Shown here: positions 21,131 through 56,690 of the stretch, piece after piece
How positions within the stretch are numbered: the stretch's first letter is position 1
Layout of the letters: every line of letters begins with the position of its first letter
From: Collimonas arenae
GTDB lineage: Bacteria; Pseudomonadota; Gammaproteobacteria; Burkholderiales; Burkholderiaceae_D
Direction of reading: 5' to 3'
DNA: 64,000 nucleotides
Assembly: GCF_001584165.1 (NCBI RefSeq)
Contig: NZ_CP013233.1
Coordinates: 1,054,001 to 1,118,000 of the forward strand
The notes under the pieces: generated by a model
What the model saw: only the letters and a program-made list of their open reading frames with translations
Databases searched by the model: none
What the model was told of the DNA's origin: nothing
Position numbers and translations under genes: made by a program

Positions 21131-21270
21131 TGCGTCATTTCGCGTCATTTTTTTTCGACATATTCTGGCCCTCAGACGGCAGGTTTCCCCTATGTGCGTC
21201 ATTCCTGAAAATTTGAGTCGAAAGCGACCTATTTAGCGGGCAGGCGTGGTGGGGGGATGACTGCGCGCGC
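21131..21270 (+). other. cos-like module 1 (P2/P4 type)
   Basis: TGCGTCATTTCGCGTCATT at 21131, then 112 bp later GGCGTGGTGGGGGGATGAC (21243-21261) followed by TGCGCGCGC. From memory the P2/P4 cohesive end is GGCGAGGCGGGGAAAGCAC followed by TGCGCGC; the match here is about 20 of 26 positions. The same layout recurs at 56,548-56,690. The identification depends on my recollection of the P2 sequence and on the second copy. Confidence 0.55.
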
Positions 21271-21514
21271 CAGGATAATTTTCGATGGATCGATAATCGA
21301 CACAACAATTTGCGATCAGGTCGTGGCTGCCTACTATCAAACCGACAACCGATTGCATCATGTATTGGCCGACGCTCGCGCCCATCGACGCGGCTGGCTT
21401 GCTTGGACGGATACCCAGAACAAAGGCTGACGTTTTTATGAATACCGCGTGAATAATGTACGGGAAACTGTTCAAATATTTAGTATCCAACCACATTAAA
21501 GTTGGAGGCAGACC

Positions 21515-22045
21515 ATGTCTAAAACAGCCATCGTTTCATTTGCGATCTTTGCTTTTTCTGGAAGTATTCATGCTCAAACCATGGATCACTCCAAGATGGA
21601 TCATGCTACCCACACGGCAGCGATGGCTGACGCGCAGCGTCAAGCTGAGGTGGCCCGGCGTGGCAAAGACGTTATGCCTTTTAGTTTGCCAGCTACGACG
21701 CATGTTTTTACTAAAAATGCCGAAGGTGGTGTGCAAAGAGTGATTGCCAAGAATTCGGCAGATGCCGGCCAAGTCAGTTTGGTGCGGCAACATTTGAAAG
21801 AGATCCGTAGGCAGTTTCTGAAAGGAGATTTCTCAGGGCCATCCCATATTCACGGTCAGGATATGCCTGGTCTGGGTGATCTCAAGGCTGCACAGCCTGG
21901 ACAGATTGTTATTACGTATAAAAATGTGACAGGCGGTGCGGAGCTGACTTACCAAACCTCGGATGCTATATTAGTTGCTGCCTTGCACAAGTGGTTTGAC
22001 GCACAGCTTTCTGACCATGGTAAGGATGCAATGAGCGGTCATTAA
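21515..22045 (+). CDS. histidine/methionine-rich periplasmic protein, possibly metal-binding
   Basis: 176 residues. Signal peptide to about residue 20 (GSIHA then QTMDH). A metal-binding-like start MDHSKMDHATHTAAM and a C-terminal DHGKDAMSGH frame a conserved-looking core (FTKNAEGGVQRVIAKNSADA; HLKEIRRQFLKGDFSGPSHI). Homologues occur in copper and heavy-metal islands, sometimes misnamed aspartate carbamoyltransferase. GGAGG lies upstream of the ATG. Likely periplasmic metal handling; inference. Confidence 0.7.
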   Translation: MSKTAIVSFAIFAFSGSIHAQTMDHSKMDHATHTAAMADAQRQAEVARRGKDVMPFSLPATTHVFTKNAEGGVQRVIAKNSADAGQVSLVRQHLKEIRRQFLKGDFSGPSHIHGQDMPGLGDLKAAQPGQIVITYKNVTGGAELTYQTSDAILVAALHKWFDAQLSDHGKDAMSGH

Positions 22046-22217
22046 ATAAGGGCCGCAATATAGTCCCATCACCACGCGGCTCACGATTTCATTGCTTGGA
22101 TTTTTCGTTGTATATTGAATTTATCTTACATCATGAACCGTGATGAATAAACACATCAATCCTGCCGGCAGGTCTCATTGCTTTTTTGTGTGTGAGTGCA
22201 GAGTGCGACTCCGATAA

Positions 22218-22258
22218 CTCACCGCCAGCCCAAGCTTATGATTTTTTTTGGCGGTGAG
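22218..22258. terminator. long inverted repeat between convergent genes
   Basis: CTCACCGCCA pairs perfectly with TGGCGGTGAG over a 21-base loop that contains a run of eight T. It sits between two converging genes and could stop transcription from both sides. Confidence 0.4.
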
Positions 22259-22300
22259 CACGTGGATACGCGGGTATCGATTTTCTCCCTGATGCGAACG

Positions 22301-22648
22301 CTACTCTGAGAACTCTTCAAATGCTTTCAACGCATGGGTGGCATACATCATGGAGGGACCTCCTCCCATATATACGGCCGTTCCCAACACTTCTTCTATC
22401 TCTGCTCGTGTTGCCCCTAATTTGACCAGAGTCTGCATGTGAAAGCCGATGCAGTCATCGCAACGGCAGGCTACTGCAATGCCTAACGCCACCAATTCCC
22501 GCGTCTTCTTGCTCAGGGCTCCCTCTTGAGTGCCAGCTGCAGCTAGCTGGCTAAATGCCGCCATCAAGTCTGGCTGTGATTGCCGCAAGCCGCGCATCTT
22601 GGCTGCGACCTCTTTGGTCAGCTCTTTGTAGACTGGAATACCGCTCAT
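22301..22648 (-). CDS. AhpD-like carboxymuconolactone decarboxylase family protein
   Basis: 115 residues from the ATG at 22648, which has AAGGAG at proper distance; a longer frame upstream lacks this. The core ALSKKTRELVALGIAVACRC, then CDDCIGFHMQTLVKLGATRAE, gives the AhpD-type CxxC (C-D-D-C) with the following His, so a peroxidase/disulfide-type activity is plausible. It ends the leftward bigR operon. A redox role with reactive sulfur species is inferred from context. Confidence 0.88.
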   Translation of the reverse strand: MSGIPVYKELTKEVAAKMRGLRQSQPDLMAAFSQLAAAGTQEGALSKKTRELVALGIAVACRCDDCIGFHMQTLVKLGATRAEIEEVLGTAVYMGGGPSMMYATHALKAFEEFSE

Positions 22649-22763
22649 GCCAGCTCCTTTGGTTGGTAAGTCAAAAATAGACGCCTGTTTGGATTGCACC
22701 CCTCGAGCTGGAGTCAGGTGTTTCATTTTCCTCTTTGAGGAAGTGTATTCCGTTTTTACCTGT

Positions 22764-23582
22764 CTATGCAGCAAGCACGACTTTCGCAGCCATGCCGACA
22801 GCAATGAGGGCGGCGACCAGGGCAAAGCCCTGTTGCAGCCTTGGTCCACTTAATCGGCTGGCGACAAGTCGTCCGCCCAGCATACCCATTACAGCGCCTG
22901 CGGCGAATGGCATGCCCACTTGCCAGTTCATGCGTCCCGCAATGGCGGTCGACATGACGCCGGAAGCCGACACCAGCGTAATCACCGCCAAGGATGTCGC
23001 CATGATGGCGTGGACAGGTGCGTTGGTTGCCCGTCTGAGTGCCGGCACAATGACAAAGCCGCCGCCAACGCCCAGCAGGCCCGAGAGAAAGCCGGCGCCG
23101 ATACCTGAAAGTGCAAGCGCTCGAGTGCAGGAAGCGGTCCAGACAAAGCGCCCAGTGCCCGCGTCCAGCTGACATGGCGGCAATTGCTGGATTGGTTCAG
23201 CCTGGAGAGGTTTCGACGGGGTCGTTTGCTTGAACATTCGTAGCGCCACAAACGCCAGTACAGCAGAGAATAGCAAGGTCAGAAGACCATTTGGCATGCG
23301 ATGAGCGAGCCATAGGCCTACGGGCGAGAACAACGTACCGGTCACGGCCATCAATGCGGCGGCCCGGTAACGCACGATACCCGCGCGTAATCCGATGACG
23401 GCACCGACAGCAGCGGACAGGCCAACTGCGAGCAGGGCAACAGGCGCAGCCTCTGCCACACTCAGATGCAAAATGAAGAGCAGCAAGGGGACGGCGAGGA
23501 TGGCGCCACCGGCGCCGGTCAGCGCCAGGATCAGGCCGACCACGGCTCCAAGGGCTGCGCTACCAGAAGTTAAGCTTTCCAT
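22764..23582 (-). CDS. TauE/SafE family sulfite/organosulfur exporter
   Basis: 272 residues, about eight hydrophobic segments, with the two internally repeated family motifs GAVVGLILALTGAGGAILAV and GAGFLSGLLGVGGGFVIVP. It is an inner membrane permease expected to export sulfite, thiosulfate or a related anion. It lies in the BigR-type cluster, where such a transporter usually removes the sulfite made by the persulfide dioxygenase. Confidence 0.93.
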   Translation of the reverse strand: MESLTSGSAALGAVVGLILALTGAGGAILAVPLLLFILHLSVAEAAPVALLAVGLSAAVGAVIGLRAGIVRYRAAALMAVTGTLFSPVGLWLAHRMPNGLLTLLFSAVLAFVALRMFKQTTPSKPLQAEPIQQLPPCQLDAGTGRFVWTASCTRALALSGIGAGFLSGLLGVGGGFVIVPALRRATNAPVHAIMATSLAVITLVSASGVMSTAIAGRMNWQVGMPFAAGAVMGMLGGRLVASRLSGPRLQQGFALVAALIAVGMAAKVVLAA

Positions 23583-23666
23583 TTATTCACCATATACATG
23601 GACTCGCCAGTGACAAGTTTTCCAATGTGCCTTGCTCGGCGAGTTAAACCTGCTGCAGACTCGATT

Positions 23667-24074
23667 TCACCCGCTCAAGCAACTCGAATACAACCATGCG
23701 GCCACCATGGCGGCCACAAAGCCCCACGCCTTCGGATAACCCGCGCCCAAGGCAACTAGCGCAGGACCCGGACAGAAGCCTGCAAGGCCCCAGCCGATGC
23801 CGAATACGGCGCTTCCCAAAACCAGTCTCAGCGTTACCTTCGCATTGGCTGGTAGCTGCACGGGCAATCCCAGGAACGAGCGCTTGCGGCGTTTGGCAAT
23901 GAAGAACGCGAGCGAACCGACGGCTATCGCACCGAGCATCACGAAGGCCAGCGACGGGTCCCAGCGTCCCGCTAGGTCTAGGAAGCCCAGGACTTTTGCC
24001 GGGTTGGCCATACCGGAAATCATCAGGCCGATGCCGAAGAGCAGGCCAGCCAGTAATGCAGTGACTGCGGTCAT
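23667..24074 (-). CDS. YeeE/YedE (DUF6691) membrane protein, second half-transporter
   Basis: 136 residues from the ATG at 24074 (GGAGGC upstream). Four hydrophobic segments, with [20 protein letters not shown] and [11 protein letters not shown], the latter carrying the conserved Cys of thiosulfate-transport YeeE proteins. It pairs with the preceding gene; together they form the two halves of a full-length YeeE. Proposed to move thiosulfate or related sulfur species. Confidence 0.9.
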
Positions 24075-24075
24075 T

Positions 24076-24510
24076 TCAGCCTCCAATCAGATGTCGTTGC
24101 ACGAAGACGGTCGCGAAGCCTGTCGCCATGAAGGTCGCCGTCGCGATCAGCGACCGAGTGGCGCCACGAGAGATGCCGCAGACGCCATGGCCGCTCGTAC
24201 AGCCGCCGGCATAGCGGGTGCCGAGACCAACCACAAAGCCGGCGATGAGGATTTCACCCCAGCCGGCCTGAATGTCGGGAGTCGCCGGATTGCCGAACGC
24301 ACTCGCGAGGATTGGAGCGCCGACCAGGCCCGTCAGGAAAGTTATACGCCATGCCATGTCATTGCGCGGCAAACTTAGCAATCCTCCGAGGATGCCGCTA
24401 ATTCCGGCGATACGGCCATTGAAGAGAACGAGGACGGCTGCCGCCGCGCCAATAATCAATCCCCCAGCCAGCGATAAGCCGGGCGTGAAGTTTTCTAGAT
24501 CCATCAACAT
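24076..24510 (-). CDS. YeeE/YedE membrane protein, first half-transporter
   Basis: 144 residues from the ATG at 24510, preceded by CAGGAG. Four hydrophobic segments and the family motif [20 protein letters not shown] with two cysteines. It is separated from the second half by one base and overlaps the end of the repressor gene, so the three are tightly coupled. Confidence 0.92.
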
Positions 24511-24842
24511 GTTGTCTCCTGTTTGACATTGGCGCAAAACTGCTCGTATAGAACCCCCATCACGGCAAGCGCCTCCTCGCTTGCAATGGAATAGAAGATG
24601 CTCCTGCCGTCCCGCCGCGTTGCGACCAGGCCGTTTTCACGCAGCACGCCGAGTTGCTGGGAAAGAGTCGGCTGCCGTATGCCGAGTCGCTCATCCAGTT
24701 CATTCACGCATAGCTCGCCCTGAGATAACTGGCACATCAGCAGCAACCGGTCTGGATTTGCCAGCACCTTGAGCAGCGCGCAGGCTCGCGCCGCAGCGGC
24801 CTGCATGGTCCCAGGGTCAATGGGAGAAGGAATATTGTTCAT
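24504..24842 (-). CDS. bigR: ArsR-family persulfide-sensing repressor, BigR/SqrR-like
   Basis: 112 residues. Winged helix with LLKVLANPDRLLLMCQLSQG and the recognition region IRQPTLSQQLGVLRENGLV. Two cysteines in positions typical of BigR/SqrR are visible (GELCVNEL and EQFCANVK), which form a di- or tetrasulfide link when persulfides rise; the gene order fits this. It should repress both its own operon and the divergent dioxygenase through the palindrome in the shared gap. Confidence 0.85.
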   Translation of the reverse strand: MNNIPSPIDPGTMQAAAARACALLKVLANPDRLLLMCQLSQGELCVNELDERLGIRQPTLSQQLGVLRENGLVATRRDGRSIFYSIASEEALAVMGVLYEQFCANVKQETTC

Positions 24843-24869
24843 ATAGCTAGGGAATAATTAATTTGAATA

Positions 24870-24891
24870 TATTATATACTTTGATATAATA
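24870..24891. promoter_or_regulatory. BigR-type operator in the divergent promoter region
   Basis: TATTATAT, six bases, ATATAATA: an 8-bp perfect inverted repeat in the 86-bp gap between bigR and the dioxygenase gene. AT-rich dyads of this sort are the known BigR binding sites. Confidence 0.6.
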
Positions 24892-24928
24892 ATTGCGAGT
24901 AGTTTTTTTACCTTCACGGAGTCCTCTG

Positions 24929-25788
24929 ATGCCAACCACCATACAATCGTTCTTCGATCCCGCGACTTGGACCGTGACCTACGTGGTTTACCAGGAAGGG
25001 CAGACGGAGTGCGCCATCATTGACTCTGTGCTGGACTACGATCCTAAAGCGGGACGGACCTCGACGGCGAGTGCCGACAAGGTCATCGCATTTGTACGTG
25101 AGCACAAATTGCGGGTGGAGTGGATACTGGAGACGCATGCCCACGCTGACCACTTGTCGGCTGCGCCTTATCTCCGAACCCATCTGGGTGGCAGGATTGC
25201 CATCGGGCAGAATATCCGCAGCGTGCAGGGCGTCTTCAAGAAGCTGTTTAACCTGGAGCCGGAATTCCGGCCCTACGGCTCACAGTTCGACCATTTGTTT
25301 GAAGAAAACGAAGAATTTGCCATTGGCGGCCTGAGCGCCAGAGCACTCCATGTGCCTGGCCATACGCCTGCCGATATGGCCTACCAGATTGGGGATACGG
25401 TCTTTGTCGGCGATACGCTCTTCATGCCCGACGTCGGCTCGGCCCGTTGCGACTTTCCGGCGGCGATGCGCACGCGTTGTATCGCTCCATTCGCAAACTG
25501 TTGGACCTGCCTGCCGCGACCAGGCTTTTTATGTGCCACGATTATCCACCTGCGGGCCGCGAGCCCGGGTGGGAAACCACCGTATATGCTCAGCGGAAAT
25601 ACAACATCCACGTGCACGACGGCGTAAGCGAAGAACAGTTTGTCGCCATGCGCCAGGCGCGCGATGCGACGCTGGAAATGCCGAACCTGATTTTGCCGTC
25701 GGTACAAGTCAATATCCGGGCCGGAGAATTGCCGCCCGCCGATTCGAACGGCGTTCGCTATCTCAAAATCCCGCTCAACGCTATTTGA
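24929..25788 (+). CDS. blh: ETHE1/Blh-like persulfide dioxygenase (MBL fold); one apparent frameshift
   Basis: About 286 residues when one G is restored near 25459 (CCGGGCGGCGAT). ATG at 24929 with GGAG upstream. Metal ligands: ETHAHADHLSAA (H-x-H-x-D-H), the later His in HVPGHTPADM, the Asp in VGDTLFMPDVGSARCDF, and the last His in MCHDY, which follows the correction. The iron enzyme oxidises glutathione persulfide to sulfite. In this context it detoxifies sulfide, with TauE exporting the product. The break matches the homopolymer-loss pattern, so I treat the gene as intact. Confidence 0.88.
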
Positions 25789-25939
25789 ATGTAATCGACC
25801 AGATTAAATTTGCTATTCTTGCCTCCAACTACCGATATGCCAATCGTTAGCTTTTCGCCCACGGCTTTCCAGCTGGCCTCATACGCATCACTGAACCATG
25901 CGCTGCAACAGCCGACTCCTCACGCAATGTGTTGCGCGC

Positions 25940-26332
25940 CTATGTTGCGGCCATCACTCGCGCCAGTCGCTCCCGCACCTCACTTGCGAGCTCGGCGACT
26001 TCCGGCCTATCGACCAATTGGAGCACTGCATCGGTGTTCATGAACTCGACCTGTATGTGGCCGGCCTCATCTTGACGCACCACCACGTTACAAGGAAGCA
26101 GCAATCCAATTGATGGCTCCATCGCGATGGCGCGGTCAGCCAATGCAGGATTGCATGCACCAAGGATGCGGTAGGGGGGAATGTCTTTGTTGAGTTTCTT
26201 CTTTAACGCTGCGGCAACGTCAATGTCACTCAAAATACCAAAGCCCTCCAGTTGCAGCGCTTGCGTAACACGGTCGATTGCATCTGAGAAAGGAACATTG
26301 ACGGTTTTCCCGAAGCCGTATTTGATGGTCAT
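25940..26332 (-). CDS. DUF302 domain protein
   Basis: 130 residues from the ATG at 26332 (GGAG upstream). DUF302 pattern: GKTVNVPFSDAIDRVTQALQ, then GFGILSDIDVAAALKKKLN, and PYRILGACNPALADRAI with its Cys; the C-terminal part contains LPCNVVVRQ. DUF302 proteins often accompany sulfur- and metal-stress clusters in proteobacteria; their biochemical role is unclear. No signal peptide is apparent. Confidence 0.9.
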   Translation of the reverse strand: MTIKYGFGKTVNVPFSDAIDRVTQALQLEGFGILSDIDVAAALKKKLNKDIPPYRILGACNPALADRAIAMEPSIGLLLPCNVVVRQDEAGHIQVEFMNTDAVLQLVDRPEVAELASEVRERLARVMAAT

Positions 26333-26477
26333 GGCAGGTTCTCCATAGTGAAGTGTGTTGAGCAATGAAATTCAGGACGTCGCTTACAAGGTTGTGATTT
26401 GCTGTCTCTCGCATCATTTTTAGCGTAATCACTATGCGCAATTTATACAATTCTCGCGCTGAAAATTATGCGTTGAA

Positions 26478-27440
26478 TCAAGACTTTATGATCAGAACAG
26501 GACGGTCCGAGATGCGCAGATACTGCTCAGCGACGCTACCTAGTGCAAATCTCAGGGCGCCATGCAGTCCGTGCGAGCCCATTACCACCAAACCAGCATC
26601 CCATTGCGCAGCGGCACTCTTGATAATTTCCGCGATTCTTGTTTCCCGTTCTTTGAGTTCAATTACTTGCATATCCCCCGCGACACCGGCGACATTGAAG
26701 ATATGGATCGCCGCTTGCCTGATGTTTGCTGTTTGTTTGGCCGCCGCCTTAAGTATTTGGTCATGATGAAAATACTTAGCGCTAAGCATAAATAAATCGA
26801 TGAACGGATCCACATTCACATACAAAGCACGAATTTCGCAGCCTTTTTCTTTGGCCAATTCTATCGCCTGGCGCAGGGCACTATTTGCGAGTTCACTGCC
26901 ATCTATCGCTACCAAGATGCGTTGAGCCGGGACGTGATCGTTTTTCCGAGATAGTCCGGAAATCCGGCTATTTTGCTGTCTTGCGGGCGAATCGGAATGT
27001 ACCAGCAGAATGGGGCGCTCTGAAATGCGTACAAAGTGTTCAGCCACACTTCCCAACATCAAGCGTCGCACCCCGCCTCGTCCGTGTGTTCCTAGCACTG
27101 TCAGGTCGATGTCGTGCTTGTCACCTTCGGCTTTGATTGCCTCCGGGATGCCACCCTCAAGATCACGCAATTCCAGCAAACTTGTCTGCACGTTAAAGCC
27201 TTGCAGCCGCAATTTAGATTCTGCTTCTGACAGCATTTCTTTGCTGTCAGAAAGAATCGCCTTGCGCATTGACTCAATGTACGAAAAGTCTCCGTCAATC
27301 GATGGGTAGTTTACGAGCCAGTCTTCGATGACATGGACAATGTGTATCGTTGAACCCGGCACAGAAAAATTGGTAATTTCCGTTAATGCTCTGTCGGACG
27401 TTTCGCTACCATCAATGCCGAACAGGATATTCTTGTACAT
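26478..27440 (-). CDS. tandem universal stress protein (two UspA domains)
   Basis: 320 residues. Domain 1 (about 1-150) starts MYKNILFGIDGSETSDRAL and ends with the ATP-binding loop GTHGRGGVRRLMLGSVAEH. Domain 2 (about 170-320) starts RILVAIDGSELANSAL and ends with GSHGLHGALRFALGSVAEQ. Both show G-x2-G-x(9)-G-S/T, so both probably bind ATP. Cytoplasmic stress protein; it lies between DUF302 and the P-type ATPase on the same strand. Confidence 0.95.
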   Translation of the reverse strand: MYKNILFGIDGSETSDRALTEITNFSVPGSTIHIVHVIEDWLVNYPSIDGDFSYIESMRKAILSDSKEMLSEAESKLRLQGFNVQTSLLELRDLEGGIPEAIKAEGDKHDIDLTVLGTHGRGGVRRLMLGSVAEHFVRISERPILLVHSDSPARQQNSRISGLSRKNDHVPAQRILVAIDGSELANSALRQAIELAKEKGCEIRALYVNVDPFIDLFMLSAKYFHHDQILKAAAKQTANIRQAAIHIFNVAGVAGDMQVIELKERETRIAEIIKSAAAQWDAGLVVMGSHGLHGALRFALGSVAEQYLRISDRPVLIIKS

Positions 27441-27516
27441 AGCAATGGTGTCCTCTAAAAAAGAACATATATCTGACCATCAATCGAACATGATCGCTCC
27501 GGCCGTTCGATATTCA

Positions 27517-30070
27517 TCAACGGGCCAAGGATCTACGTCGGCCAAAAGGGTGTTTCACGGCTTCGAACCATAACAAATTCATTGCGGCCACACCGACACC
27601 ACCCAATAGCATCGAAGGCGTCGGCAGGACAAACGCGAATAACCGGCTGATGGCAGGAATCCCTAGTGTGGCGCCCAGCAAGACGAGTGTAGTCAGGGCA
27701 ATCCATCCGAAGTAACGATTGGAGCTCCCGGAACGGCGCCAGGAGGCTTGCCTCCACGAGCGATTTGCATGGATTAATCCAAGATTAGATATCACCAGCA
27801 CGGTGAAGGTCATGGCACGAGCCATACCGTCAGAGTTCGACATGAAACGAGTGCCTGCATACACAACGAGTAAGGTTATAAGCAATCCGCCTCCCTGCCA
27901 TAAGCCGCGTATAAGTACCTGCTTGTCGAACAGATGTGCTTCCGGACGACGCGGCTTGGCTAGCATGGCTCCTGCCTCAAGCGGTTCAGCCTCAAAAACG
28001 ATGGAACATGCGGGATCAATGATCAATTGCAAAAAAAGAATATGAACCGGCAACAGCAGAATTGGCCAGCCCAGCAGGACGGGTATGATCGACAGGCCGA
28101 CAATAGGCACATGCACCGCTACCACAAAGACAATTGCTTTACGCAGGTTGGCAAATACCCGACGACCGTAGCGCACTGCAACGACGAGTGACGAAAAATC
28201 GTCATTTAATAGTACGAGTGCGGCGGCTTCGCGAGCAACATCGGTACCTCTCGCTCCCATGGCCACGCCGATACTGGCTGCTTTCAGCGCTGGCGCGTCA
28301 TTGACGCCATCTCCGGTCATCGCCACAACATCCCCCCTCGCGCGGAAAGCCTGCACGATTCGCAGTTTCTGTTCCGGTCGAATGCGACTGAAAATGTGGG
28401 TGTTTGCGAGTCGCGTGCGCAACTCGTCATCGCTCAAATTAGTCAGTTCAGCACCAGTGATGACAGCGTCGTCTGCAGGAATCCCTGCCTGTCTGGCAAT
28501 TGAAACTGCGGTTGCAGAATGATCACCGGTGATCATTACCACGCGAATTCCTGCCATATGACACTCTGCAATCGCTTGTGGAACATCGGATCGTACTGGA
28601 TCCTCCAATGCTATTAATCCCAGAAATTCGAACTCGAAGTCATGTTGATTGCCAGGCAGAGTTTCGGCAGCGAAAATAGCGCGCGCAACGCCCAACACCC
28701 GCAATCCGTCAGCCGCCATGAGCCGCACCTGCTCGGCAACCACAGCGCAGCGCGTGGTGTCGAGATGGCATAGATCAACGATTGCTTCCGGCGCACCTTT
28801 AGCGGCAATCACCCGTTCGCGCTGATTAGGAGATTGCCAGACACGTGACATGGCCAGCATTTCGCGTGACAGAGGGTAGTCTTCTATTAAGGTCCAGTCG
28901 CCATGAAGGTGCTCGGTATTTGCTAGTAAGTGTTTCCCCGCCTCACCGATAGCTGACTCCATCGGGTCAAAAGCGCGGCGATGACTAGCCAATACCGCGA
29001 ATTCCAAAATGCCGTGCAATTCCTCCGGGAGCGGAGCGGATCCAGCCACTGTCGTGTCGTAGATAGCTGAATCAATCCATAACCGTCTGACCGCCATTCG
29101 ATTCGAGGTCAAAGTTCCTGTTTTGTCGACACAAAGTACGGTGGTCGCCCCAATAGCTCAATGGCTGGAATGCTTCTCGCCAATACTTGTTCACGCGCTA
29201 ACCGCCAGGCGCCAAGGCCCAAAAAGAGCGTCAGCACGACCGGCAGTTCCTCCGGCAATATCGCCATCGCCAGTGTCAGCCCGTAAGCAAGCCGTTGATC
29301 CAATCTCCACGTGTCAACCAGTAGGTAACTGCAAGTCCACCCGCCAAGAGCAAACCGACGGTTGCTACATGTTTCACGACGCGCCGTGTTTCAAGTTGAA
29401 TGGGGGTACTCTGTCCACCTAAGCCCGCCAGAGATTTTCCGATATGCCCAAGTGCGCTGCGTTCGCCGGTAGCAATGACACGACCACGTGCCGTGCCTTG
29501 CGTGACGAGAGTTCCAGAGAACAGTTGCACAGCATCGCTCACATCCGATGCGATAGCAGCGAGATTTGAAATAAGACCTGTTTCCTTAGCCACCGGGACA
29601 GACTCTCCCGTCAACATGGATTCGTCGACTGCAAGGTTTGATGAATCTACGATATATATATCAGCGGGAACGCGGTCACCTTCGGCCAACAATACAATGT
29701 CGCCGCGAACGAGGTCACTCCCCGCTATCTTGCGTGTCAGTCCGTCGCGTATGACTAGTGTTTGCGGGCTAGAGAGGTCGCGCAACGCCTCCAGTGAACG
29801 TTCTGTACGGCGCTGCTGGAAAAATGTGATCCCCATAACGACGAAGACAAAGCCCAGTAGCATCAACGCCTCGTTTCGATCGCCAAGGAACATATAGATA
29901 GCGCCACAAGCTACCAACAGCAAGAACATCGGTTCAGAGACAATCTCACGTAGCAAGCGCAATATGCCGCGTCGACTAGAGACCGGAAGCTCGTTCGGGC
30001 CGTCTTGAATGAGGCGCTCGCGCGCTTCTTTTTCGCTCAAGTCATCATCATGGGTGAAGGATGCTGACAT
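27517..30070 (-). CDS. cation-transporting P-type ATPase (P2/PacL-like); two apparent frameshifts
   Basis: About 851 residues if one G is restored near 29281 and one near 29149. Order: N-terminal cation-ATPase domain (LSEKEARERLIQDGPNEL), actuator with TGES in ESMLTGESVPVAKE, membrane helix with PEELPVVLT (equivalent of the PEGLP ion-binding motif), phosphorylation site DKTGTLT just after the second break, and the hinge MTGDGVNDAPALKAASIG, ending with six C-terminal membrane segments. Without correction three frames cover one protein. The ion is probably Ca2+, Mg2+, Mn2+ or H+; I cannot tell. Directly followed on the left by UspA and preceded by a CDF exporter gene. Confidence 0.88.
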
Positions 30071-30094
30071 TGATGACTCCCCCAGCGATATCGG

Positions 30095-31042
30095 TTATGT
30101 TTCGATGGTTTTATGATCTAGATCGGGACGCCGCCAAGGATCCACGTGCGTCATCAGATTTAGCACGCGATGACGCTGTAGCACCCGCTGTCGTGCTGCA
30201 ACCGCTATGTCATGACCAGCCTCTACGCTAATTGCGGCATCAACCTCTATGTGGGCATCAACAACGATCATATCCCCCATCTTGCGTGTACGTACGTCGT
30301 GGACACCATTAACGCCGGGTGTTTCAATTAGTGTGCGGCGGATAGCCTGAACTTCTTGCTCATTGACGGAACGGTCCATGAGGTCATGGAGTGCATCCCA
30401 GCCAAAACTCCAACCCATCTTGGCGACCATGAATCCCACGATCAGCGCTGCGATGGGATCCAGTATAGGGTATCCAGCCAGATTGCCGATGATACCGACA
30501 CCCACAACCAGCGAAGATGCCGCGTCGGAGCGCGCATGCCAAGCATTTGCTACCAACATACTGGATTTGACACGTTTGGCTACCGAAAGCATGTAGCGAA
30601 ACAGCGTTTCTTTTGCAATGAGGGCGCCACCTGCAACCCAGAGGGCAACAATGTGCACCTTTTGCACCGTATCGGGATCTTCCAGTTTGCGAAAGGCGGA
30701 CCACAACATACCAATACCGACGGCTAACAGCAGCAAGCCTAAAACTAGCGAGGCTGCAGTCTCGAAGCGCTGGTGACCATATGGATGGTCTTCGTCAGCA
30801 TCCTTTTTTCCGTGATAGCTGGCAAACAGCACAACGAAGTCCGCAACAAGGTCTGATAGCGAGTGGATCCCATCGGCAACGAGACCTTGGGATTTGGCGA
30901 AAACACCTACAACCACCTGTGTAACGGTCAGTAGAAGATTGACACCGACGCTTACCCAGGTGCTCCGAGACGCAGCTGCCGCGCGCTCTTCTGGGCTGTG
31001 TCGGGTGTCTTCCGGATCATCGGCAATTTCGTCAAAATTCAT
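30095..31042 (-). CDS. cation diffusion facilitator (CDF) metal exporter
   Basis: 315 residues, six membrane segments. Metal sites: the first in DGIHSLSDLVADFVV and the second in WHARSDAASSLVVGVG; a DEDHPYGHQRFE loop is typical of FieF/MamM-type CDFs. The C-terminal cytoplasmic ferredoxin-like domain contains HDVRTRKMGD and VDAHIEVD. Exports divalent ions (Zn, Cd, Fe, Mn) by proton antiport. It lies 24 bp upstream of the P-type ATPase start, so probably one operon. Confidence 0.94.
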   Translation of the reverse strand: MNFDEIADDPEDTRHSPEERAAAASRSTWVSVGVNLLLTVTQVVVGVFAKSQGLVADGIHSLSDLVADFVVLFASYHGKKDADEDHPYGHQRFETAASLVLGLLLLAVGIGMLWSAFRKLEDPDTVQKVHIVALWVAGGALIAKETLFRYMLSVAKRVKSSMLVANAWHARSDAASSLVVGVGIIGNLAGYPILDPIAALIVGFMVAKMGWSFGWDALHDLMDRSVNEQEVQAIRRTLIETPGVNGVHDVRTRKMGDMIVVDAHIEVDAAISVEAGHDIAVAARQRVLQRHRVLNLMTHVDPWRRPDLDHKTIET

Positions 31043-31273
31043 GGAAAGGTAGTCCTATGTAAACATGCGCCGGGGATAGCATCGAGGCTACCACGCGATG
31101 ATAATCCTTGATTACATGCATATCTGGATTGATTCAGGTCAAATTCATCGACAGTTTATAACTAGGTGCAGATCTATTATGGCACCCTCGTCGAGGAGCG
31201 TTCCATCCTGAGCAACTGGGTGATATCTGCGCGAAAGGCGCAAGACGAATGCGACGTATTGTCATACGCAAAT

Positions 31274-31438
31274 TCAAGTCAAATGGAAGTTCGTTGTCGC
31301 AGCAATGTTGCGGGCTTCTCCGGGATGACCGGCCAAGTTTAGCGGTATGGAAAGGAACGTCACCGCAACAACAGGTAACAGCGTGGCGAATACGACGCCA
31401 AGATACTGGCGAATGAATAACTGTAGGGCAGGATGCAT
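31274..31438 (-). CDS. small membrane protein (54 aa)
   Basis: ATG at 31438 with AAGGA upstream. MHPALQLFIRQYLGVVFATL, one long hydrophobic helix (residues about 12-34), then NLAGHPGEARN. Similar short proteins sit next to DUF1924/diheme cytochrome clusters in Ralstonia-like bacteria. It is divergent from that cluster and shares the regulator boxes. Function unknown. Confidence 0.65.
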   Translation of the reverse strand: MHPALQLFIRQYLGVVFATLLPVVAVTFLSIPLNLAGHPGEARNIAATTNFHLT

Positions 31439-31488
31439 GGCAGATTTCCTTGATTGAAATGATTGATGCTGAATGCTAGCCGCCACAC

Positions 31489-31532: not shown

Positions 31533-31587
31533 AAAACAGCCTCATCATGAATTCCAGGAAATAACCATCAACCCGGAAGGTATTGCC

Positions 31588-40297: not shown

Positions 40298-40298
40298 G

Positions 40299-47700: not shown

Positions 47701-50700
47701 TGCCAGTGCCGTTCTGCTCCGCGCTGGTCTGGCTGTAATTGGTGAAACGGAAATTGAGACCACCCATCACACCGATGCTAGTGCCGCTGCTGTGGCTATC
47801 GCTCTGTGAGGTTTGTGTATTTGCTGCGGCCAGTACATTGATGTCACGCCCGGCGTTAATGCCGATGTTCTGATCGGCGGTCACGGCACTGGCGGTAATC
47901 GTGGTATCGCGTCCGCTACTGGTGTTCACGTTGGCGCCGCTGATGTCACTACCGATCTGGTTGACGCTAGTACCGTTCTGATGCTGATCCTGCGCACTAT
48001 GCCCGAAGCTGACGCCAGTCAAGACACTACCCGAGAACCCGGATTTCGTTTCCTCAGCAGAGAAACTGTCCTTGCTCGTTTGCTGCGCGCTGACGATATT
48101 TAAATCGCGTCCAGCATTGATATTCAGATCACCTTGCGCAATCACCTGGCTACCCTGCACGTTGGTGTCACGACCTGACTGCAGAGCGATCCCAGCACCA
48201 CCGTTTAAGCTGCTGCCGATGGCGTCCGTCGTGTTCTGATTCATCTGGGAACGGCTGGTCGATGATGACAGCATGCCGTGCGACGTGGTGTAAATGGCCT
48301 GATCGACGCTGCCAGTTTGCTGCGCCGTTCCAATATTGATGTCGCGACCAGCTACCGCTGTGAGTTGTCCGCCGGCATTGGCCGTCGCCGCTGCAGTGTT
48401 GATATCCTGCCCAGCGACGAGCGTCAACTTTCCGCCCGTATTGATCGCCGTACCGTTGGCCTGCGTCTGATTCTCATACAGGTGATTGTCAGCGTTGTAG
48501 GTGACGTTATAGGTGTTTTGCGTATTGACCGCCGTCAGGTTCACATCGCGCCCTGCCGACAGCGCCGCGTCCCCCGTGGTATTGACGTTCACCGCCGCCA
48601 GATTGATATCGCGTCCGGCCTGAATCGACAATTGATCGGCATTGACACTGGCAACCGGTCCCAGCACCGTGTTCGTCCCTTGCACACTGGTCGCTGAGAT
48701 CGCGTCGGTGCTCATTGTCACGTCACGCCCGGCCAGAATACCGACACGGTGACCGGAAATACTGCCGCCATTGTTCAACACGTCATTCTGTGCGACCAGA
48801 ATGGTCGCACCATTGGCCCCGGTACTACGGATATCGCCGGTATTGGCAATGTCCGTTGCCTGGATGATCATGTTGTTCGATGCTTGCAGCGTACCGCCAT
48901 TTTGCAACGTACCGTTCACCTTCAGATCGATATCTTTACCCGATATCAGTGCCCCAGTCGGCGAAATGTCGCTGGCGTCTGCTCGGGTCAGATACACCAC
49001 CGGCGCCAGCACTTGCGTATGCGTGCCATCCGGTAACGTCACATCGGTCGACACCATCCAGACGATGTCAGAGGTCAATGCCGCCATCTGCGCATCGGTC
49101 AGCGCAATGCCGGGCGTGAGCTGAAACTGTTTTGCCGTTGCCACGCCAGAGTCCATCAGCGCCTTATATTCATCCTCATTGCTGGCATGGCCGTCCAGAA
49201 AGCGCTTACCGGTCAATTGGGCGATCTGGTTGGTAACGGTTTGTGCCTCATAGAAACCGTCGCCCAATCGCTTTTCTGTGGAGGCCGGATTAACGCCCAA
49301 GAGACCCAGCATGTAGTTGCTGGAGAGGAAATTGCCGTAATTGGTAAACTTCGGATCGGTCTCAATCAGATAGGGCTGATTCGGTTGCGTATGTATGGTG
49401 TAGAGCTGGTTATTCGGCAAGACCAGATTCGGCAACGGTGCTTGAGGTGTCCCGAGGGTCTGGTGACTGCCGGTCGTACTGGTGACTTTGCCGGCGCTGC
49501 CACTGGCGGTGCCAACCGTATTGGCATTGGCAGCCCCCGTTGTCAGACCTGACTGATTAGCGCCCAATTGGAGAGCACCCACACTCGGCAAGGCGCTGCC
49601 GCCCACGCCATTGCCGACCGCCTGGTTCGGGCCGGTCACCGGTTGCGTGTTCTGCTGCACGGTCCAGACCTGCAGGGCCAATGGGGTCGACGGCAGATTC
49701 ACATCATAAGCCGCGCCGTTATTGTCATACGTGTAGTAATTCTGATGCGGATGGCCGCTCACCCAATGGTAGTAATTCTCGCCGGCGGTCATGTGGTCGA
49801 CCGTATCGATGGAACCGGTCGCACCAATATTATTGATGCTACCCACCATGCCGCCCAAAGTCCCGCCGGCAATGATTGTGCTCTTGTCGTTGGTCACATT
49901 GCCCGACAAGGTCATGTTACCGGCTGAGCTGATCTGGCCGGGATCGCTGCTGGTGACCACAGTTTTAGAAACCGTCTGCGTATAGTCCTTCTTGTAGAAT
50001 TTCTCGAAGCGGTTGCCATCCGGTATCACCAGCACAATCCCACCATCACCGCTGTCGCTCCAGGTGACTTGACTCGGCGTGTACCAGGTCGTGGGCGCGG
50101 CCCACTGCGCATATTCGGTCACGTGCGTGGTTTGGGTCGGGTCGACCTGCTGGATTGTCGTGAAGTGATTATTTTGATTCAACAGCGACGCCGTCTGCAG
50201 CGTCAACGCGCCACCGGAATTAATGGTCGCCGAACTGTTTACAATACTGGCGGCACTGCCGGTCACATTGTTGTTGGCGTCGAGCGCGCCACCCATGGCC
50301 ATATCGCTCAGGCTCTCAATCAACGCATGTTCGCGGTTGGTGATCTGCTGCGCACCGATTTGCAGCGTATTGCGCGAAGCGATCACGCCGGCCTGATTGG
50401 TCGTCGTATCGACATCGTTGGTCAGCGTCTGCGCACCCAACGCAATATCGTTGCCGTAGATGCGGCCTGTGTTGATGATCGCATTGGACGAATGAATGAC
50501 CGTCTCACCATTACCGGCATTCATTAAGCCACTGCTTTGATTATCGACATTGGCTGCATTTAAGGTCAGATTGCGCACTGCCTCCAGATTGCCGGTATTG
50601 GTCAGATTACCTGTGGTCGACAACGTCAGATCACGGTTGGCGGTAAGTAAGTTGCCGGCGGTGTTGGCATAATCTCCCTGCAGGCTGATGACGGCATCCT

Positions 50701-53700
50701 GTTGGGCCACAACTTGACCATTGCCGACCAGCGTCGGCGCCGTCAGCGTCAAATTATGAGCGCTGGCAATGGTCCCCGCTGTGTTATCGAGATTGCCGCT
50801 GGTGGCCAGCGCAATATCGCCGCCGGCATTGGTGGCAAGCAGACCAAAGATATTCGAGAAGCTGGCGACACTCACATTGACAGGGCCGCCGGCAGTGATA
50901 CGACCGCCAACATTGGTCACTGCCGCGCCCGCTTGATTCAGTTGCAGGCTCTGGCCTGCGTACAGGTTACCGGCATTGTTGTTGACGTTGTTGCTGGTAT
51001 TTAAGGTTAAATTTCCGGCGGCGATGACCTGCCCGTTGCTACTATTGTCCAGATTCGTACTGGTCAGCGTCAGGTCGCCATTGCCGCCGATGGTGCCCAT
51101 ATTGGGTGTATTGGCCGCATTGGTATTGGTGATCTGACTACCGCCGTTGATTTGCGTTAAACCTGTGCCGCTATTGGCAATCCGGCCCGACGTGTTATCC
51201 ACACTGGCGCCAGAGACTGTCATCGTCGCCGTGCTGCCATTGGCCTCAATACGACCGTTGGCGTTGTCTACGGCCCCCGTAGCAATGGCCGATAGGTCTG
51301 TGCCGCTTTGGATCACGCCATAGGAATTGGTCAGCTGACCATTCGACTGCAGAGATAACGCATCTTTTGCGTACAATGTCCCGCCGGTGTTATCGACCGG
51401 GCCAGCGTTGATCGTTGCAGAACCGGCGCTACCGATAAAGCCACCGACACCATTGGCGATACCGTTGCTGATGCCTTGCGCTGCCGTAATCGAGAGCGGT
51501 GCGCCGCCCAGGCTTTGCACGGTTCCTGCGGCATTGGAGAGGCTGTTCGCGTTGACCATGAGGCCGGATTGCGTGCCTTCGATTTTACCGGCGGTATTGT
51601 TGACGACCCCTGCCGCATTCACAGTCAACTGACTGCCGCCCAGATAGCCGCCGGCGCTGTTGTCGATGTCGCCCTGGGTAGCTGCAATGGTCGTGGCCTT
51701 CTGACCGAACATGCTGCCGCCCTGATTATCTATAGATAACGCCTTAACATTGGTCACACCGTTGCCACCGATGCTACCTTGCTGATTCTGTAGCACGCCG
51801 CTACTAGCGCTAACCGTCAACGTTCCACTGCCTGCCAAGGCAATTTGCCCGCCGGCGTTGTTCAGCGTCTGCGGGGTCAAGGTCAGATCGGCGCTATTGG
51901 TCTGAATCACACCGCCGTTGCTGTTGTCGAGCGCATTGGCAACAGCAATGATGTTGGTGCCTGTACCGAATTGAGCGATTTGGCCCGCTTCATTGGTCAA
52001 GTCGGTAGCGTGGATCGTCAACTGATCCGCAGTGATTTTACCGTGCGAGTTATCGAGCTGCGGCACCGTCAATGCAACGGTCGACGCATTGATTATCCCG
52101 GCAGTGTTCCTGACACTGGCCGCATTGACTTGCAACGCCTGTCCTGCTGCCAGGTTACCGCCGCTGTTATCTAACGCGCCGCTGACGGTTGTTGTGAGAT
52201 TGTTGCCGGCGCTGATCTGGCCGCTGTTGGACATGCTGGCAGCCGTCACAGAAACATCGCCATTGCCGCCGATGACGCCGCCTGCAGCACCGCCCGCGGT
52301 CGTTCCCGCTGTATTGGTCAATTGGCCAGTAGTCGTCAGCGTCAAACCGCTTGTATCGAGCGAGGTGATCCGGCCCGCGCTGTTGTCGATGGCGCCGGCT
52401 TGCAAGTTCAACGCCGACCCGGCTTGCAGCACGCCCTGGTTGTTCGACACGGCACCACTTGCAGCGATGTGTTCTGTACCGGCTGCAATCACCTGGCCGC
52501 GCTGATTATTCAGGCTCGATGCAGTGAGGGCCAACTGGCCACCAGTCGCGACATTACCAGCGACGTTGCTCACAGCACCGGCATTCACGGTCAATGTCCC
52601 CGATCCGGTATGGCTCAAACGGCCCGCGTCATTGGAAATGCTCCCCGCCTGCAGATTGACGTTTTGTCCGGCGGTCGTGATGACACCCGAGCTGTTATCC
52701 AATAGGCCGCTGGTGGCGATACTGGTCTCACCAGTACCCGACTGATTCAACGTCCCACCATGATTCGACAGCGTTGCGGAACTGGAGGTCAACTGCGCTG
52801 CACCGATGACGCCCTGATCATTGATCACGGCGCCGCTGGCGCTGAGGGTTGCAGCGCCAGTGGCTTGCAGATTGCCGCCGGTATGGTCAATGTCGCCGCT
52901 GCGGGCCGTGACTGCGACCGTGCCGCCAGCGCTGGTCTGTGCATGCGACAGATCCACGCTGGCGCCGTTGATACCAATATTGGTGCCTGCCGTGTTCTGC
53001 CCTGTCGAGCTCAGATTACCCGCCGCAATCAAGGATAGATTGCCGCTCTGTGTGGCTTTACCGCTGGCATCGATACCAGCGCCCAGCACGCCCGTGGAGG
53101 CAATACTGCCGGCATACAGTGTCAGGTAGCCTTGTGCGGCAACCGTGCCGGTATTGGCGATCTGATTGTCGCTCGATAACTGTGCTGTTTGTCCGCTGTA
53201 GACCGTGCCGCTATTGACGATGCCGTCATGGCTGTGTATCGTCACCTGACCCGTGGCGCTCACTGGACCGGCAAGCGTGATCTTGCCCTGGCTGTCCAGA
53301 TTCAGATCGCCCGCACTGGAGGCGATATTGCCCAGGCTTCTCACGCCCACACCACTCTCATTGGCTAACAGGTAGATCTTATTGGCATACATACCGCCAA
53401 GAGAGGCAATGTCCACCCCCAAGGCCGGTTTGTTGTTATCGCCTTGCAGAACCTTGACGCCCAAACCGTTGTAATTGACCTCGTTTGTTCCCACGACCGC
53501 ATTGAGCTGGTTAGCCCATACCGGACCGTTGACTGCAATACTGCGCGAAATGAGATCCAGGGTATCGGCACTGGCAGCGTTTAAACCGGCACTGCCGATC
53601 TGGATATCTCCGCCGGTCACGTGAAACGTGCTGAGGCTGCCATCGGCAGCCAACACCGGTGTGCCTGTCGTCAGAATGGCACGTGATACATTGATATAAC

Positions 53701-54271
53701 TCGCCGCTGTTCCCGCGCCACCTACCGTAATACCGTTGGGATCGGCAATCACCACCACGGCACGCTGACCAGCCACCTCAATTGTGCCGCCGATGACGGC
53801 ACGATTGGTGCTGGTGACCTCATTGAGAATTACCGATGCGCTGCCGTTCGTCAAATTCGGGTTGCCCGGCACATATCCTGCCAACTGTGAATTAACCACT
53901 GTCGGAGAATTTCCAAGCACCACGCCTTTCGAGTCAATCGCCAGTTGCGAAAATTGGTTGTGACTGAGGCCAGACGAATTAGGCTTAGTGATCTGAACGA
54001 GGGGCACCCCATTCGGCGCCGTTGTGACAGTGGGTCTGCGCGAACCGGCGTTCGGATCGGCGACGATCTGGGCTGAGACGATGCTGACACAATTAAAAAG
54101 CATCGCCACGGTCACCGCCATCTGTGCGAAGCGCAGCAGCGGTGTAGTCGCGGTCGTCGCAACGGCGCTACCGGCGCCCGATGCTTTGCCCTGACTGGAG
54201 ACGTTCTCCGCGACCGCCATCAACATGCCGCGGCTCTTATTGAAAATCACGCGGAAATTTTGGGTATTCAT
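44787..54271 (-). CDS. cdiA: CdiA contact-dependent growth inhibition exoprotein (about 3160 aa); one apparent frameshift
   Basis: Extended signal peptide MNTQNFRVIFNKSRGMLMAV then a hydrophobic core, the TPS secretion domain (VTTAPNGVPLVQITKPNSSG; VVIADPNGITVGG), a long run of filamentous-haemagglutinin repeats rich in Asn/Gly/Ser, and FHA2-type repeats with SGRDTTI, AGRDINL and similar blocks. One A restored in the run at 46051-46055 joins ALKNNWADGSQEKIVLHGIV to the C-terminal part, which holds the pre-toxin ADQNNRQLHQDEKAWIKSNA. The final 200 residues are hydrophobic and glycine-rich (GVVGGAAGAAGAFAGLKVQ), pointing to a membrane-active toxin, not a nuclease. Exported by the adjacent CdiB. 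Confidence 0.92.
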
Positions 54272-54523
54272 ATTCTGTCGTCCAGTTCAGGTGTATCGAT
54301 GGTGATAAATGTCGAACGTATTACTCAGCGCCTGCGCGTCTACGGCAAGTTAAACAAACGACCCCGTTCGGCAGAAACTGGCCGATGCTACGGATACGTC
54401 CGCACGGCCCAGCACAGCGTTGCATGGAATGATTAATCGGTGCTTTACTCGCCTGCGTGGCACGATGAAATGCCTCTGTTGCCCGTGGATGAGTATTCAT
54501 ATCTTCACATTCCCTTGCTCGAA

Positions 54524-56346
54524 CTAATATTGATAGGCCAAGTTGAAACCAACAGCCGGCATCGTCGTATTAAAACCTTGTGGCTTGTATAGCGCCCAGC
54601 TGGAAAACACGTCGTAGGTCAGCCCGAACAAACCACCGCGCAGACCGACAGTCGCACCGGCCAGCTTGTTGCCAAGGAGGTTTGCGACGCTGGGGCCATA
54701 CACCTGCCCATAGTCGAGGCCGACATACGCGGACTGGCCGCTGTTGGTGATCGGCAGATTCAATTCATTGCGCAGATAAAAGCCGCGCTCAGCAGCCAGC
54801 GTCAGCTCACCATCAAAGCCGCGCACGGTGTACCGATTGCCAATGCTGAATTGATCTGCCAGGTAGAGCGCGGAACGCGTCGTCTGGCCACGGAAGGTGC
54901 CGATATAGGTCAGCGGTTGACTGGCGATGTGGAAAGGCACGCTCAAGGTCGCATCGACCGTCTGCAGGCTGTAGTGGAGATTATTGGTGCTCGGATCTTC
55001 TTGCCCCGATAAATTGCGGGCATACGTCTGCCCATTGAGCCAGTTGACACCCCACTTCTGAGCGACCGTCAGATCGAGCTGAGCGTTACCGATGTAATGC
55101 GTATGTACCCAGGCCAGTTCGGCAAATGTGGTGTTACGTTCCTGCACCGCGATTTCGCTGTCCTCGATGTAGGCATGGTTCCAGCGTTTGCCGACGCGGA
55201 ACTGCCAGCTATTCTTTTGCGCCTGATCGCGCTGGAACAGCTGGGCGATTTTAAGTTCCAGATTGCGTGATTTCCCGCTCGACACAAAGGTCTGACTCGC
55301 CTGAGCCACCTCTTGGTGATAATCATAGGTGCTTCCCGATACCGCAAAATTCCAGTAACCAGCGGGCACAGCGTAATACACATTGTTGCCATTGGTGCCA
55401 CGCTGACCCGCCTTGCGCTGTGCATCGGTATTGATGCCGACGTTGAACAGATCGTTCAGCCCCAAAGGATTATCGACCGCCAGATTCAACCCTGCCTGCA
55501 GCTTGCCGGTTCCCTTGGCGCCACTATCATCAAACGTCCCGGTCAGCTTCCACGGCTTGCTGCGTTTGACCTGAATCACGACGTCACTCTCGCCCGGCAC
55601 GTCGCCGGCACGATCTGCATATCGACATCCTGGCTCGGCACGCGCTTCATCTGCTCCAATCCCTGCTCCAGGTCGCGCAAGTTGAGCAACTGCCCGGAAC
55701 CAGTTGGAAATGCACTGCGCCAGGTACCGTACAAGGTTGGATCAGAAAAACGAATCTCCCGGATTACGCCAGGAACCAATACCAGTTTCAACACGCCGCC
55801 GGTCAAGTCCTGTTCCGGTATGCCAATCCGTGTCGTGCTATAGCCGCGTTGCAGAATCAGATTGGTCAGGCGCTTGACGATCAGATTCAGGCCGCCTTTG
55901 CCAATACAGGCGCCATCGTATTGGCGTAGGTAGTCTTGGGCAAAGCGGAAGTTATCGAACGGAAGATCGCTTGCGCCAAGTGCATGAACCGCAGGCGATA
56001 ATTGAGAAGGAACGTCAAGGACAAACTGGTGGATCGTGAAGCAAGGGGATTCACTAGGAATACTCAAGCCTTCCAGCGCTTCAGCTGCGGCCTTGTCTTC
56101 CAGACTCACGTTAGGCGCTTGCAACTGCCGCTGACGTTCCTGCAGATCGGCCTGATTACGGCGCCGCTGCTCTTCGCTCGACGGCGTTTGCACACTGGGG
56201 TCACGACGCCGCAACTCTTCCAGATCCGGCAACGGCGCCGTCTGTGCACTGCTGCTGTGGGCGGTGCCAGCCAATAGCAAAGTCAGGCCAATGCGCTTGG
56301 CAAGGCCCGATGGATACTGCCGCTTACGTTGAACGAACTTCCCCAT
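54524..56346 (-). CDS. cdiB: CdiB two-partner secretion outer membrane transporter; one apparent frameshift
   Basis: About 608 residues if one G is restored near 55605 (CCGGGCGAC). Signal peptide MGKFVQRKRQYPSGLAKRIG..., an N-terminal plug-like helical part (LEELRRRDPS), then two POTRA domains (ESPCFTIHQFVLD; IREIRFSDPTLYG) and a 16-strand barrel ending GFNLAYQY, with the ShlB/FhaC motif RGFDGELTLAAERGFYLRNE. It transports CdiA across the outer membrane. Gene order B-A-I is the E. coli type. 250 bp without a gene separate it from cdiA. Confidence 0.9.
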
Positions 56347-56547
56347 GTCTACAGCTTTCTTTCTTTTTATTGCACTGGAAGAAAGAGTGTAGTGAGGAAT
56401 GATCTGTTAAATGTTGTTGATTTACCAAATTTTGCAATTGTTCACTATTTTGGACGGAAGAATAACGAAAATAGTTTCGATAAAACAACACCAACTAAGA
56501 AGAAACAGATAAAAGCAAGTTTATCGCACCCAAACCACCGCACAAAG

Positions 56548-56690
56548 TGCGTCATTTTGCGTCAACCCGTTGCAGCCGATTTCCCGGCGAACCCCGCGCA
56601 GCTTGGAGGGTTGGCGCTTTACCCGTTTGCGTTAAAAGCACACCATTTAACGGGGCGGGCAGGCGAGGGGGGAACTGCGCCGCGCAGGGT
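56548..56690 (+). other. cos-like module 2 (P2/P4 type)
   Basis: TGCGTCATTTTGCGTCA at 56548, then 114 bp later GGCGAGGGGGGAAC (56662-56675) followed by TGCGCCGCGC. The layout, orientation and ATTTAnCGGG...GGGCAGGCG lead-in match module 1 at 21,131-21,270. It sits directly before the satellite genes, where P4-like satellites carry cos. The rest of the gap 56347-56836 holds the cdiB promoter region and a leftward terminator. Confidence 0.55.

Follow-up and report, generated by a model that had tools for sequence, protein, structure and literature searches.

Two P2-type cos modules of different classes in a probable composite island of Collimonas

A 64,000-nt stretch of the Collimonas arenae genome (hereafter the window; positions 1,054,001-1,118,000 of a 4.72-Mb single-contig assembly that we label G000) contains a genomic island in which two modules resembling the cos site of phage P2 lie in the same orientation, 35.4 kb apart, on either side of a large set of cargo genes for metal transport and toxin delivery, contact-dependent inhibition (CDI)-like genes among them. 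Why does one island hold two such sites? A preliminary description of the locus offered two answers, namely a satellite arrangement that lets a helper phage package the DNA from cos to cos, or two elements inserted in tandem with cargo between them. The comparisons reported here, in which G- and L-labels are our working labels for the relative genomes and the loci compared, favour the second answer: the island very probably combines at least two elements of P2-like (Peduoviridae) origin whose structural genes are gone.

Two cos modules of different classes

The left module (cosA; 21128..21275, + strand) and the right module (cosB; 56545..56690, + strand) score 132 and 116.5 bits, respectively, against models of the two cos classes defined below. 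The box TGCGTCATTTNGCGTCA occurs exactly twice in the window, at 21,131 and 56,548, both times on the + strand, and not once in 100 shuffles. Likewise, GGGCAGGCGNGGNGGGG with at most one mismatch is found at two sites, 21,238 (no mismatches) and 56,657 (one mismatch), against a shuffle mean of 0.01. When the P2 cos core was compared with every third position of both strands, 42,624 positions in all (mean score 4.05, standard deviation 2.16), the right site came first with a score of 23. The left site, scoring 19, was the second-best distinct site and stood ninth in the raw list, behind eight overlapping positions of the right site. The places and common orientation that had been proposed for the two modules are thereby confirmed, as is a gap of 112-114 bp between box and core, since the distance from the TGCGTCA box to the presumed cut measures 112 bp on the left and 114 bp on the right. 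Judged from the ends of P2 (L180), the cut would fall at 21,243 in the left module, whose end-like stretch of 19 nt spans 21,243-21,261, and at 56,662 in the right module, where the corresponding stretch begins. The idea that the modules share one end-like core did not stand: the two stretches are identical at only 10 of their 19 positions, so the sites have neither a core nor an end in common.

The left module matches Peduoviridae DNA, with the best match in Pseudomonas phage Sirocco (E 2e-7), and a weak match in Burkholderia phage Mana (E 3) is located on the cos site predicted there by PhageTerm; for the right module, neither the phage collection (best E 7) nor plasmids gave a significant match. 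Similarity to a phage cos, whose complete absence would have refuted the preliminary description, is present. The missing match on the right would suit a reading of the modules as chance GC-rich sequence or an unrelated repeat. Given the shuffles, the P2 slide scores, the conservation of such modules throughout each class and their position before capsid and portal genes, we regard that reading as having a negligible chance of being correct. By sequence and by the position of their classes in prophages, both modules are genuine P2-family cos sites.

To define the classes, pattern searches were run over 15 genomes of the genus, in all 15 of which the box-pattern controls returned 0, and 28 distinct cos modules were extracted by script and compared. 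Class A is marked by 101-103 bp between the box and TTTA, AAATTTGAGTCGAAA as lead-in and GGCGTGGNGGGGGGATGACTGCGCG; class B by 98 bp in most modules (102 in one), GCGTTAAAAGCAGTGCATTTAAC as lead-in and GGCGTGGGGGGGACTGCG. Sequence models were built from 15 class-A and 21 class-B modules after one reversed class-B row (G002) and two partial class-A rows had been left out. The cos of phage Dobby was found by both models and that of P2 by the class-A model (E 0.02). The left window site is of class A, the cos of Citexvirus-like phages, and the right window site is of class B, the cos of most P2-like prophages in the genus. Class-B cos returned nothing significant from the phage and plasmid collections. 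In IMG/VR, the class-B pattern is seen on one contig and the class-A pattern on two (L305-L307).

The P2 capsid family is represented by 9 copies in 7 of the 15 genomes and the P2 scaffold family by 10 matches, also in 7 of 15, and these family searches gave zero matches to either in the window's own genome. A class-B cos lies 4.2-4.4 kb upstream of the capsid gene in seven of the nine capsid loci, and tblastn, applied to four of these, places the start of the portal gene 0.4 kb from that cos in each. The eighth locus, a prophage in G003, is of class A, with its cos 3.7 kb ahead of the portal gene; the short contig that carries the ninth, in G009, yielded no cos. Terminase small subunits, compared among six prophages only, are 70-91% identical among four class-B prophages and 55-58% identical between these and the class-A prophage of G003, with G003 and G009 at 71%.

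Cos modules of both classes extend well beyond these prophages. A census of 100 relatives with the cos models, made with stricter filters and 30 candidates per genome so that its counts are lower bounds, counted at least 16 class-A and at least 27 class-B modules of near-full length, spread over 11 of the 15 genus genomes; outside the genus, class-A matches occur in at least three other genera and class-B matches in at least one. The genus thus holds at least 43 near-full cos modules against 9 capsid genes (again lower bounds) and 10 scaffold matches. P2-type cos sites far outnumber P2 capsid genes here, and they often adjoin competition cargo. Six class-A loci (L167, L169, L170, L171, L175 and L179) have a VgrG-family gene on the right of cosA, at a distance of 0.1-3.5 kb, and Pfam confirms it in two of them (L171 and L175). 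For class B, the accessory genes stand to the left of cosB and comprise VgrG (the G011 prophage, L176) and a YadA-like gene (G008). A Tle1-like effector gene follows the VgrG-family gene in L175.

An attachment core between the cos sites

Bounded by 15-bp direct repeats at 19,659 and 62,432, the island measures 42.8 kb. The attL core, CTCGCCATAGTTCAA (19659..19673, + strand), is an exact repeat of the first 15 nt of a tRNA-Arg(CCT) gene (62432..62506, + strand), so the attachment core is the 5' end of that gene. In G002, G007 and G010 the left and right flanks of the window are joined in an undivided site (occupied/empty comparison, L031, L034 and L035). No third tRNA-Arg core with at most one mismatch is present between the cos sites, where only look-alikes with three mismatches occur. 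Elsewhere in the genus, further tRNA-Arg-type cores stand in tandem in G013 and G006 (L170:4454 and 7810; L032), which correspond to stacked insertions at one site.

An attachment core of a second kind does lie between the cos sites. The 32 nt at 44281..44312 (+ strand) are identical to the last 32 nt of the true transfer-messenger RNA (tmRNA) gene, ssrA (G000:3,912,589-3,912,620, L290), and ARAGORN finds no tmRNA gene at this copy (L276). It is followed by an arm (44313..44429, + strand) typical of the left end of class-B elements, which is 71-79% identical to the DNA beside ssrA copies in L277, L293, L295, L299 and L303 and resembles L302 in part; the genomes whose extra ssrA cores are followed by a similar arm are G005, G008, G004 and, partly, G006. 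To the left of the core, 42595..43016 (+ strand) appears to be the remnant of an element integrated at ssrA, from its right end: 42,614-43,016 is 92% identical to L178:10963-11365, a segment that belongs to the gene next to an ssrA core in G005 and stops immediately to the left of that core.

Across the genus, the ssrA-end pattern occurs 33 times at up to three mismatches, comprising 15 tmRNA genes, one per genome, and 18 extra copies (15 checked by ARAGORN; the other 3 count as extra since a tmRNA gene is already accounted for in each of their genomes). Going downstream from an extra copy on its own strand, a class-B cos is reached after 4.1-13.8 kb in 11 of the 18 cases, which involve 10 different cos sites. 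Within 20 kb upstream or on the opposite strand, all 18 lack such a site. In addition, an extra copy precedes four of the seven class-B prophages. Because extra ssrA cores precede class-B cos sites in the genus, the succession of core, cargo and cosB can be taken as the standard left end of a class-B element. On the strength of these sequence resemblances, we read 44.28-56.69 kb of the window as the left end of a second, class-B element, with the CDI-like genes as its cargo. The 35.4 kb between the cos sites divides at the ssrA core into 23.0 and 12.4 kb. A simple way to tell a satellite designed with two cos sites from piled-up prophage remnants is to search between the sites for the attachment core of a second element; here both such a core and a class-B arm are found.

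Could cosB have arrived without a second insertion? A single class-A ancestor might have gained it as a stray fragment, together with the CDI cargo, by one recombination. We consider this possible, though at rather less than an even chance. Orphan cos sites beside cargo are common in the genus, as the excess of near-full modules over capsid and scaffold genes indicates, and the partial class-B matches listed mostly keep the left, cargo-side half (11 of 16), with the right half alone kept in none. Among the partial class-A matches listed, however, the right half is kept in only four of nine and the left in one, so that the pattern of halves is weak for that class, and the segment to the left of the ssrA core also resembles the end of an ssrA element, which favours a tandem array as the source.

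Beyond cosB, the right end of the island is a P2-like early module. It encodes an XRE-type regulator (56920..57207, - strand; phrog_8, with HTH_3 below the cut-off), a ribbon-helix-helix (RHH) regulator (57406..57690, + strand; Pfam and PHROGs), an Ogr/Delta-like late activator (57814..58056, + strand; PF04606, E 6.5e-15), a phage primase (58382..61067, + strand) and a tyrosine integrase (61307..62323, - strand; PF00589, phrog_1). The genes expected to follow the right cos, Ogr/Delta, primase and integrase, are therefore all present, but the primase is split into two open reading frames (ORFs; 58,382-60,079 and 60,219-61,067, phrog_1139 in both pieces), where three relatives have a single frame of 893-907 amino acids. 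Structural genes are another matter. Eighteen protein queries from genus prophages gave five matches in the island, at E 0.12-0.64, and none better; against a control prophage stretch, 13 of the same 18 match at E below 1e-10, and as that stretch starts at the capsid gene, the portal, large terminase and scaffold queries were not expected to match there. The island is accordingly not an intact P2-like prophage with portal, terminase, capsid and tail genes; it does have the combination expected of a P4-like satellite, namely integrase, primase (split), Ogr/Delta and cos without structural genes.

A packaging unit or stacked remnants

The composite origin that we favour would have involved a class-A element contributing the tRNA-Arg attachment ends, the iterons described below, cosA and the cargo to its right, and a class-B element supplying cosB, the CDI-like genes on its left and, at 44,281, a left end of the ssrA type, with the right-hand early module and integrase placed behind cosB. 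Class-A elements hold their accessory genes to the right of their cos and class-B elements to the left, so that the remains of both classes, once side by side and with their structural genes lost, would leave cargo flanked by two cos sites. Each site would be a substrate for the terminase of the matching phage class, acting either after excision or during infection by a helper. We infer this order of events, and the function of the cos sites, from the comparisons above. Stacking of this sort most likely accounts for the geometry, the orientation, the spacing and the internal ssrA core, and makes a special packaging design unnecessary. Of the two answers first offered for the locus, elements in tandem with cargo between them is the one that fits best, with cos sites of different classes and an ssrA core and arm between them. 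The island as it now stands probably lacks a helper and is in decay. Its primase, CdiB-like, CdiA-like and P-type ATPase genes are all split, which suggests decay unless the splits are sequence errors.

Arrangements elsewhere in the genus agree with tandem insertion in orientation and vary in order. Neighbouring cos matches within 60 kb of each other are co-oriented in 15 of 16 pairs, pairs inside one island being non-independent, which is as tandem insertion would give. In G005, a prophage is followed by a second cos and portal 34.6 kb on. The same genome as the window contains a second co-oriented pair at G000:1,710,541 and 1,720,178 (L184), both of class B and 9.6 kb apart, and the sequence just to the right of each of these is the same.

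The window's layout recurs in a 43.0-kb island in G005, which lies between 17-bp repeats at tRNA-Thr(CGT) and has a different integrase and different cargo. Its stretch from cosB to primase is 84.6% identical to that of the window and its block of iterons and cosA 88.6% identical; 36.4 kb separate its cosA from its outer cosB, two more cos sites lie inside, and an ssrA core separates its cosA from the B sites. G006 has a third arrangement with A ahead of B, which spans ~18.4 kb and has a partial B. The G005 cargo includes putative repeated transposase-like ORFs.

This recurrence also bears on the other answer, that the island is a functional dual-cos satellite from which a P2-like helper packages the 35.4 kb between cosA and cosB, or which a helper of either class packages through its own cos. 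Both modules are full-length, and the G005 island repeats the layout with another attachment site, integrase and cargo. The integrase, both attachment cores and Ogr/Delta are present, and 35.4 kb is 0.91 of the length of the 39.0-kb G003 prophage, compared with 1.10 for the whole 42.8-kb circle. There is also a precedent in EcCICFT073, described as a satellite with two functional cos sites (PMC6092414). Nevertheless, we judge a functional satellite of this kind to be quite unlikely. Packaging from A to B would omit the integrase and the primase, the latter being split in any case; the end-like stretches agree at 10 of 19 positions and the terminases differ by class in the six prophages compared; and no P2 capsid or scaffold gene that would point to a helper was detected in this genome. 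The G005 island has its two extra cos sites between the outer pair, G006 has its shorter interval and partial B, and in four other neighbouring pairs in the genus B comes before A. The cos-to-cos packaging by a helper that was first suggested is not supported by the class-specific terminases, the differing ends, the split primase and the lack of capsid and scaffold genes, nor by the spacing, which is the sum of two elements and varies elsewhere.

Two further candidates were rejected. A 35.4-kb spacing tuned to a capsid does not sit with its division into 23.0 and 12.4 kb at the ssrA core, with the ~18.4 kb of G006 or with the transposase-like ORFs in the G005 cargo. A P4-like satellite found no support either: tblastn with P4 proteins (E 1e-6) lists no sid, psu or epsilon in the window, a search that lists one best match per place, so that a match to P4 Int or delta could sit under a better one.

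Several observations count against a composite made by two insertions. Both cos modules of the window are still full-length, and the resemblance between the window and the G005 island in both the early module with cosB and the iteron-cosA block may mean that the two-cos unit was inherited as such. The ssrA core of the G005 island has another arm type on its right, and with different arm types the two islands do not have one simple shared history. Seven of the 18 extra ssrA copies have no class-B cos nearby. Finally, a single ssrA core remains in the island, from which the second insertion cannot be read as a clean event, and the right-end gene of the ssrA element is 1.3 kb from the core in the window and adjacent to it in G005.

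A broader proposal is that cargo islands with cos sites and without capsid genes form a population in Collimonas that depends on helpers of two classes, and that composites such as this island and that of G005 have both cos types so that either helper can mobilise them. We think it unlikely. If true, the cargo beside class-A or class-B cos sites would comprise CDI-like genes, VgrG with a Tle1-like effector and YadA-like adhesins, and an island of 42.8 kb would be too long for one capsid from a single cos, with the 35.4 kb between two cos sites packageable.

Cargo, related systems and neighbouring features

The first block of cargo (21515..42212) is a mixed region whose description rests on Pfam. 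It encodes a sulfite exporter of the TauE family, a metallo-hydrolase, a DUF302 protein, a universal stress protein and a P-type ATPase in two ORFs, along with cation efflux, cytochrome b561, a two-component pair, an AI-2E family protein and WapI-like immunity, the gene for the last being at 41,778-42,212. The CdiA/haemagglutinin-like gene (44787..54271, - strand) consists of two overlapping ORFs: the large one (45,995-54,271) has ESPR, TPS and Fil_haemagg_2 domains, and the small one (44,787-46,016) has no Pfam domain. The CdiB-like transporter gene (54524..56346, - strand; ShlB, POTRA_2/POTRA_3) is likewise in two ORFs.

Between attL and cosA lie a 257-amino-acid ORF (19867..20640, - strand), with no Pfam or PHROGs match at E 0.01, and a GGTAAC-rich stretch of iterons (20760..21080, strand not assigned). 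Counted on both strands, 10 of the window's 32 copies of GGTAAC fall within 20,700-21,130. Together with cosA, this block forms a unit of ~510 bp that is 74-91% conserved in seven other loci (L011, L012/L160, L167, L173, L174, L175 and L177), and it is probably a replication origin.

Among known phages, the island most resembles members of Citexvirus (Peduoviridae; Pseudomonas phages Dobby and Sirocco), whose cos region is matched by cosA, whose primase shares 52% identity with the first primase ORF of the window and which, in Dobby, have the same order of XRE, primase and integrase, Ogr excepted. Unlike these phages, the island lacks structural genes and carries over 30 kb of cargo, along with an internal ssrA core and a second cos, which is of another class. 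The P2-like Ralstonia phages phiRSY1 and phiRSA1 (PMC5694545) are similar to the island in that they have int and att beside cos, 19-base ends and accessory genes, including a Vgr-like one, between cos and the portal gene; they differ in being complete phages with a single cos.

Cargo next to cos is also known from the hotspots of P2 phages and P4 satellites, which are reported to hold 1-5 kb of mostly anti-phage genes (PMC9122126), whereas the island has tens of kilobases of transport, stress and CDI-like genes and two cos sites. EcCICFT073 and SaPIbov4 likewise have two cos sites in one island, but they are small, and the sites of EcCICFT073 match the cosN of one helper (PMC6092414), whereas those of the window are of two classes. 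P4-like satellites share with the island an integrase, a primase, an Ogr/Delta-type gene and a cos, and their largest elements are often in tandem with decayed neighbours (PMC8628076); they differ in that no sid, psu or epsilon was found in the island and its primase is of the Citexvirus family (phrog_1139). Searches of the literature listed no description of this island. As kinds of arrangement, the double cos and cargo next to a cos are both already known; what the island adds is a further instance, in which sites of two classes form a composite with an ssrA core inside.

When two cos models were run over 44 loci outside the genus that carry this primase family, each spanning up to 10 kb on either side of the primase, a search for a dual cos gave three weak matches, in Pectobacterium and Samsonia. 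Elsewhere in the genome of the window, a P4-like integrase and a Vis/AlpA-like gene adjoin tRNA-Ser(CGA) (L182:5030-7828), with a decayed tRNA-Arg-type core ~2 kb beyond them. Outside the island, the window also contains a Betaproteobacteria toxic small RNA (RF02278) at 16772-16838 and repeated stretches of 20-42 bp at 16,953-17,316.

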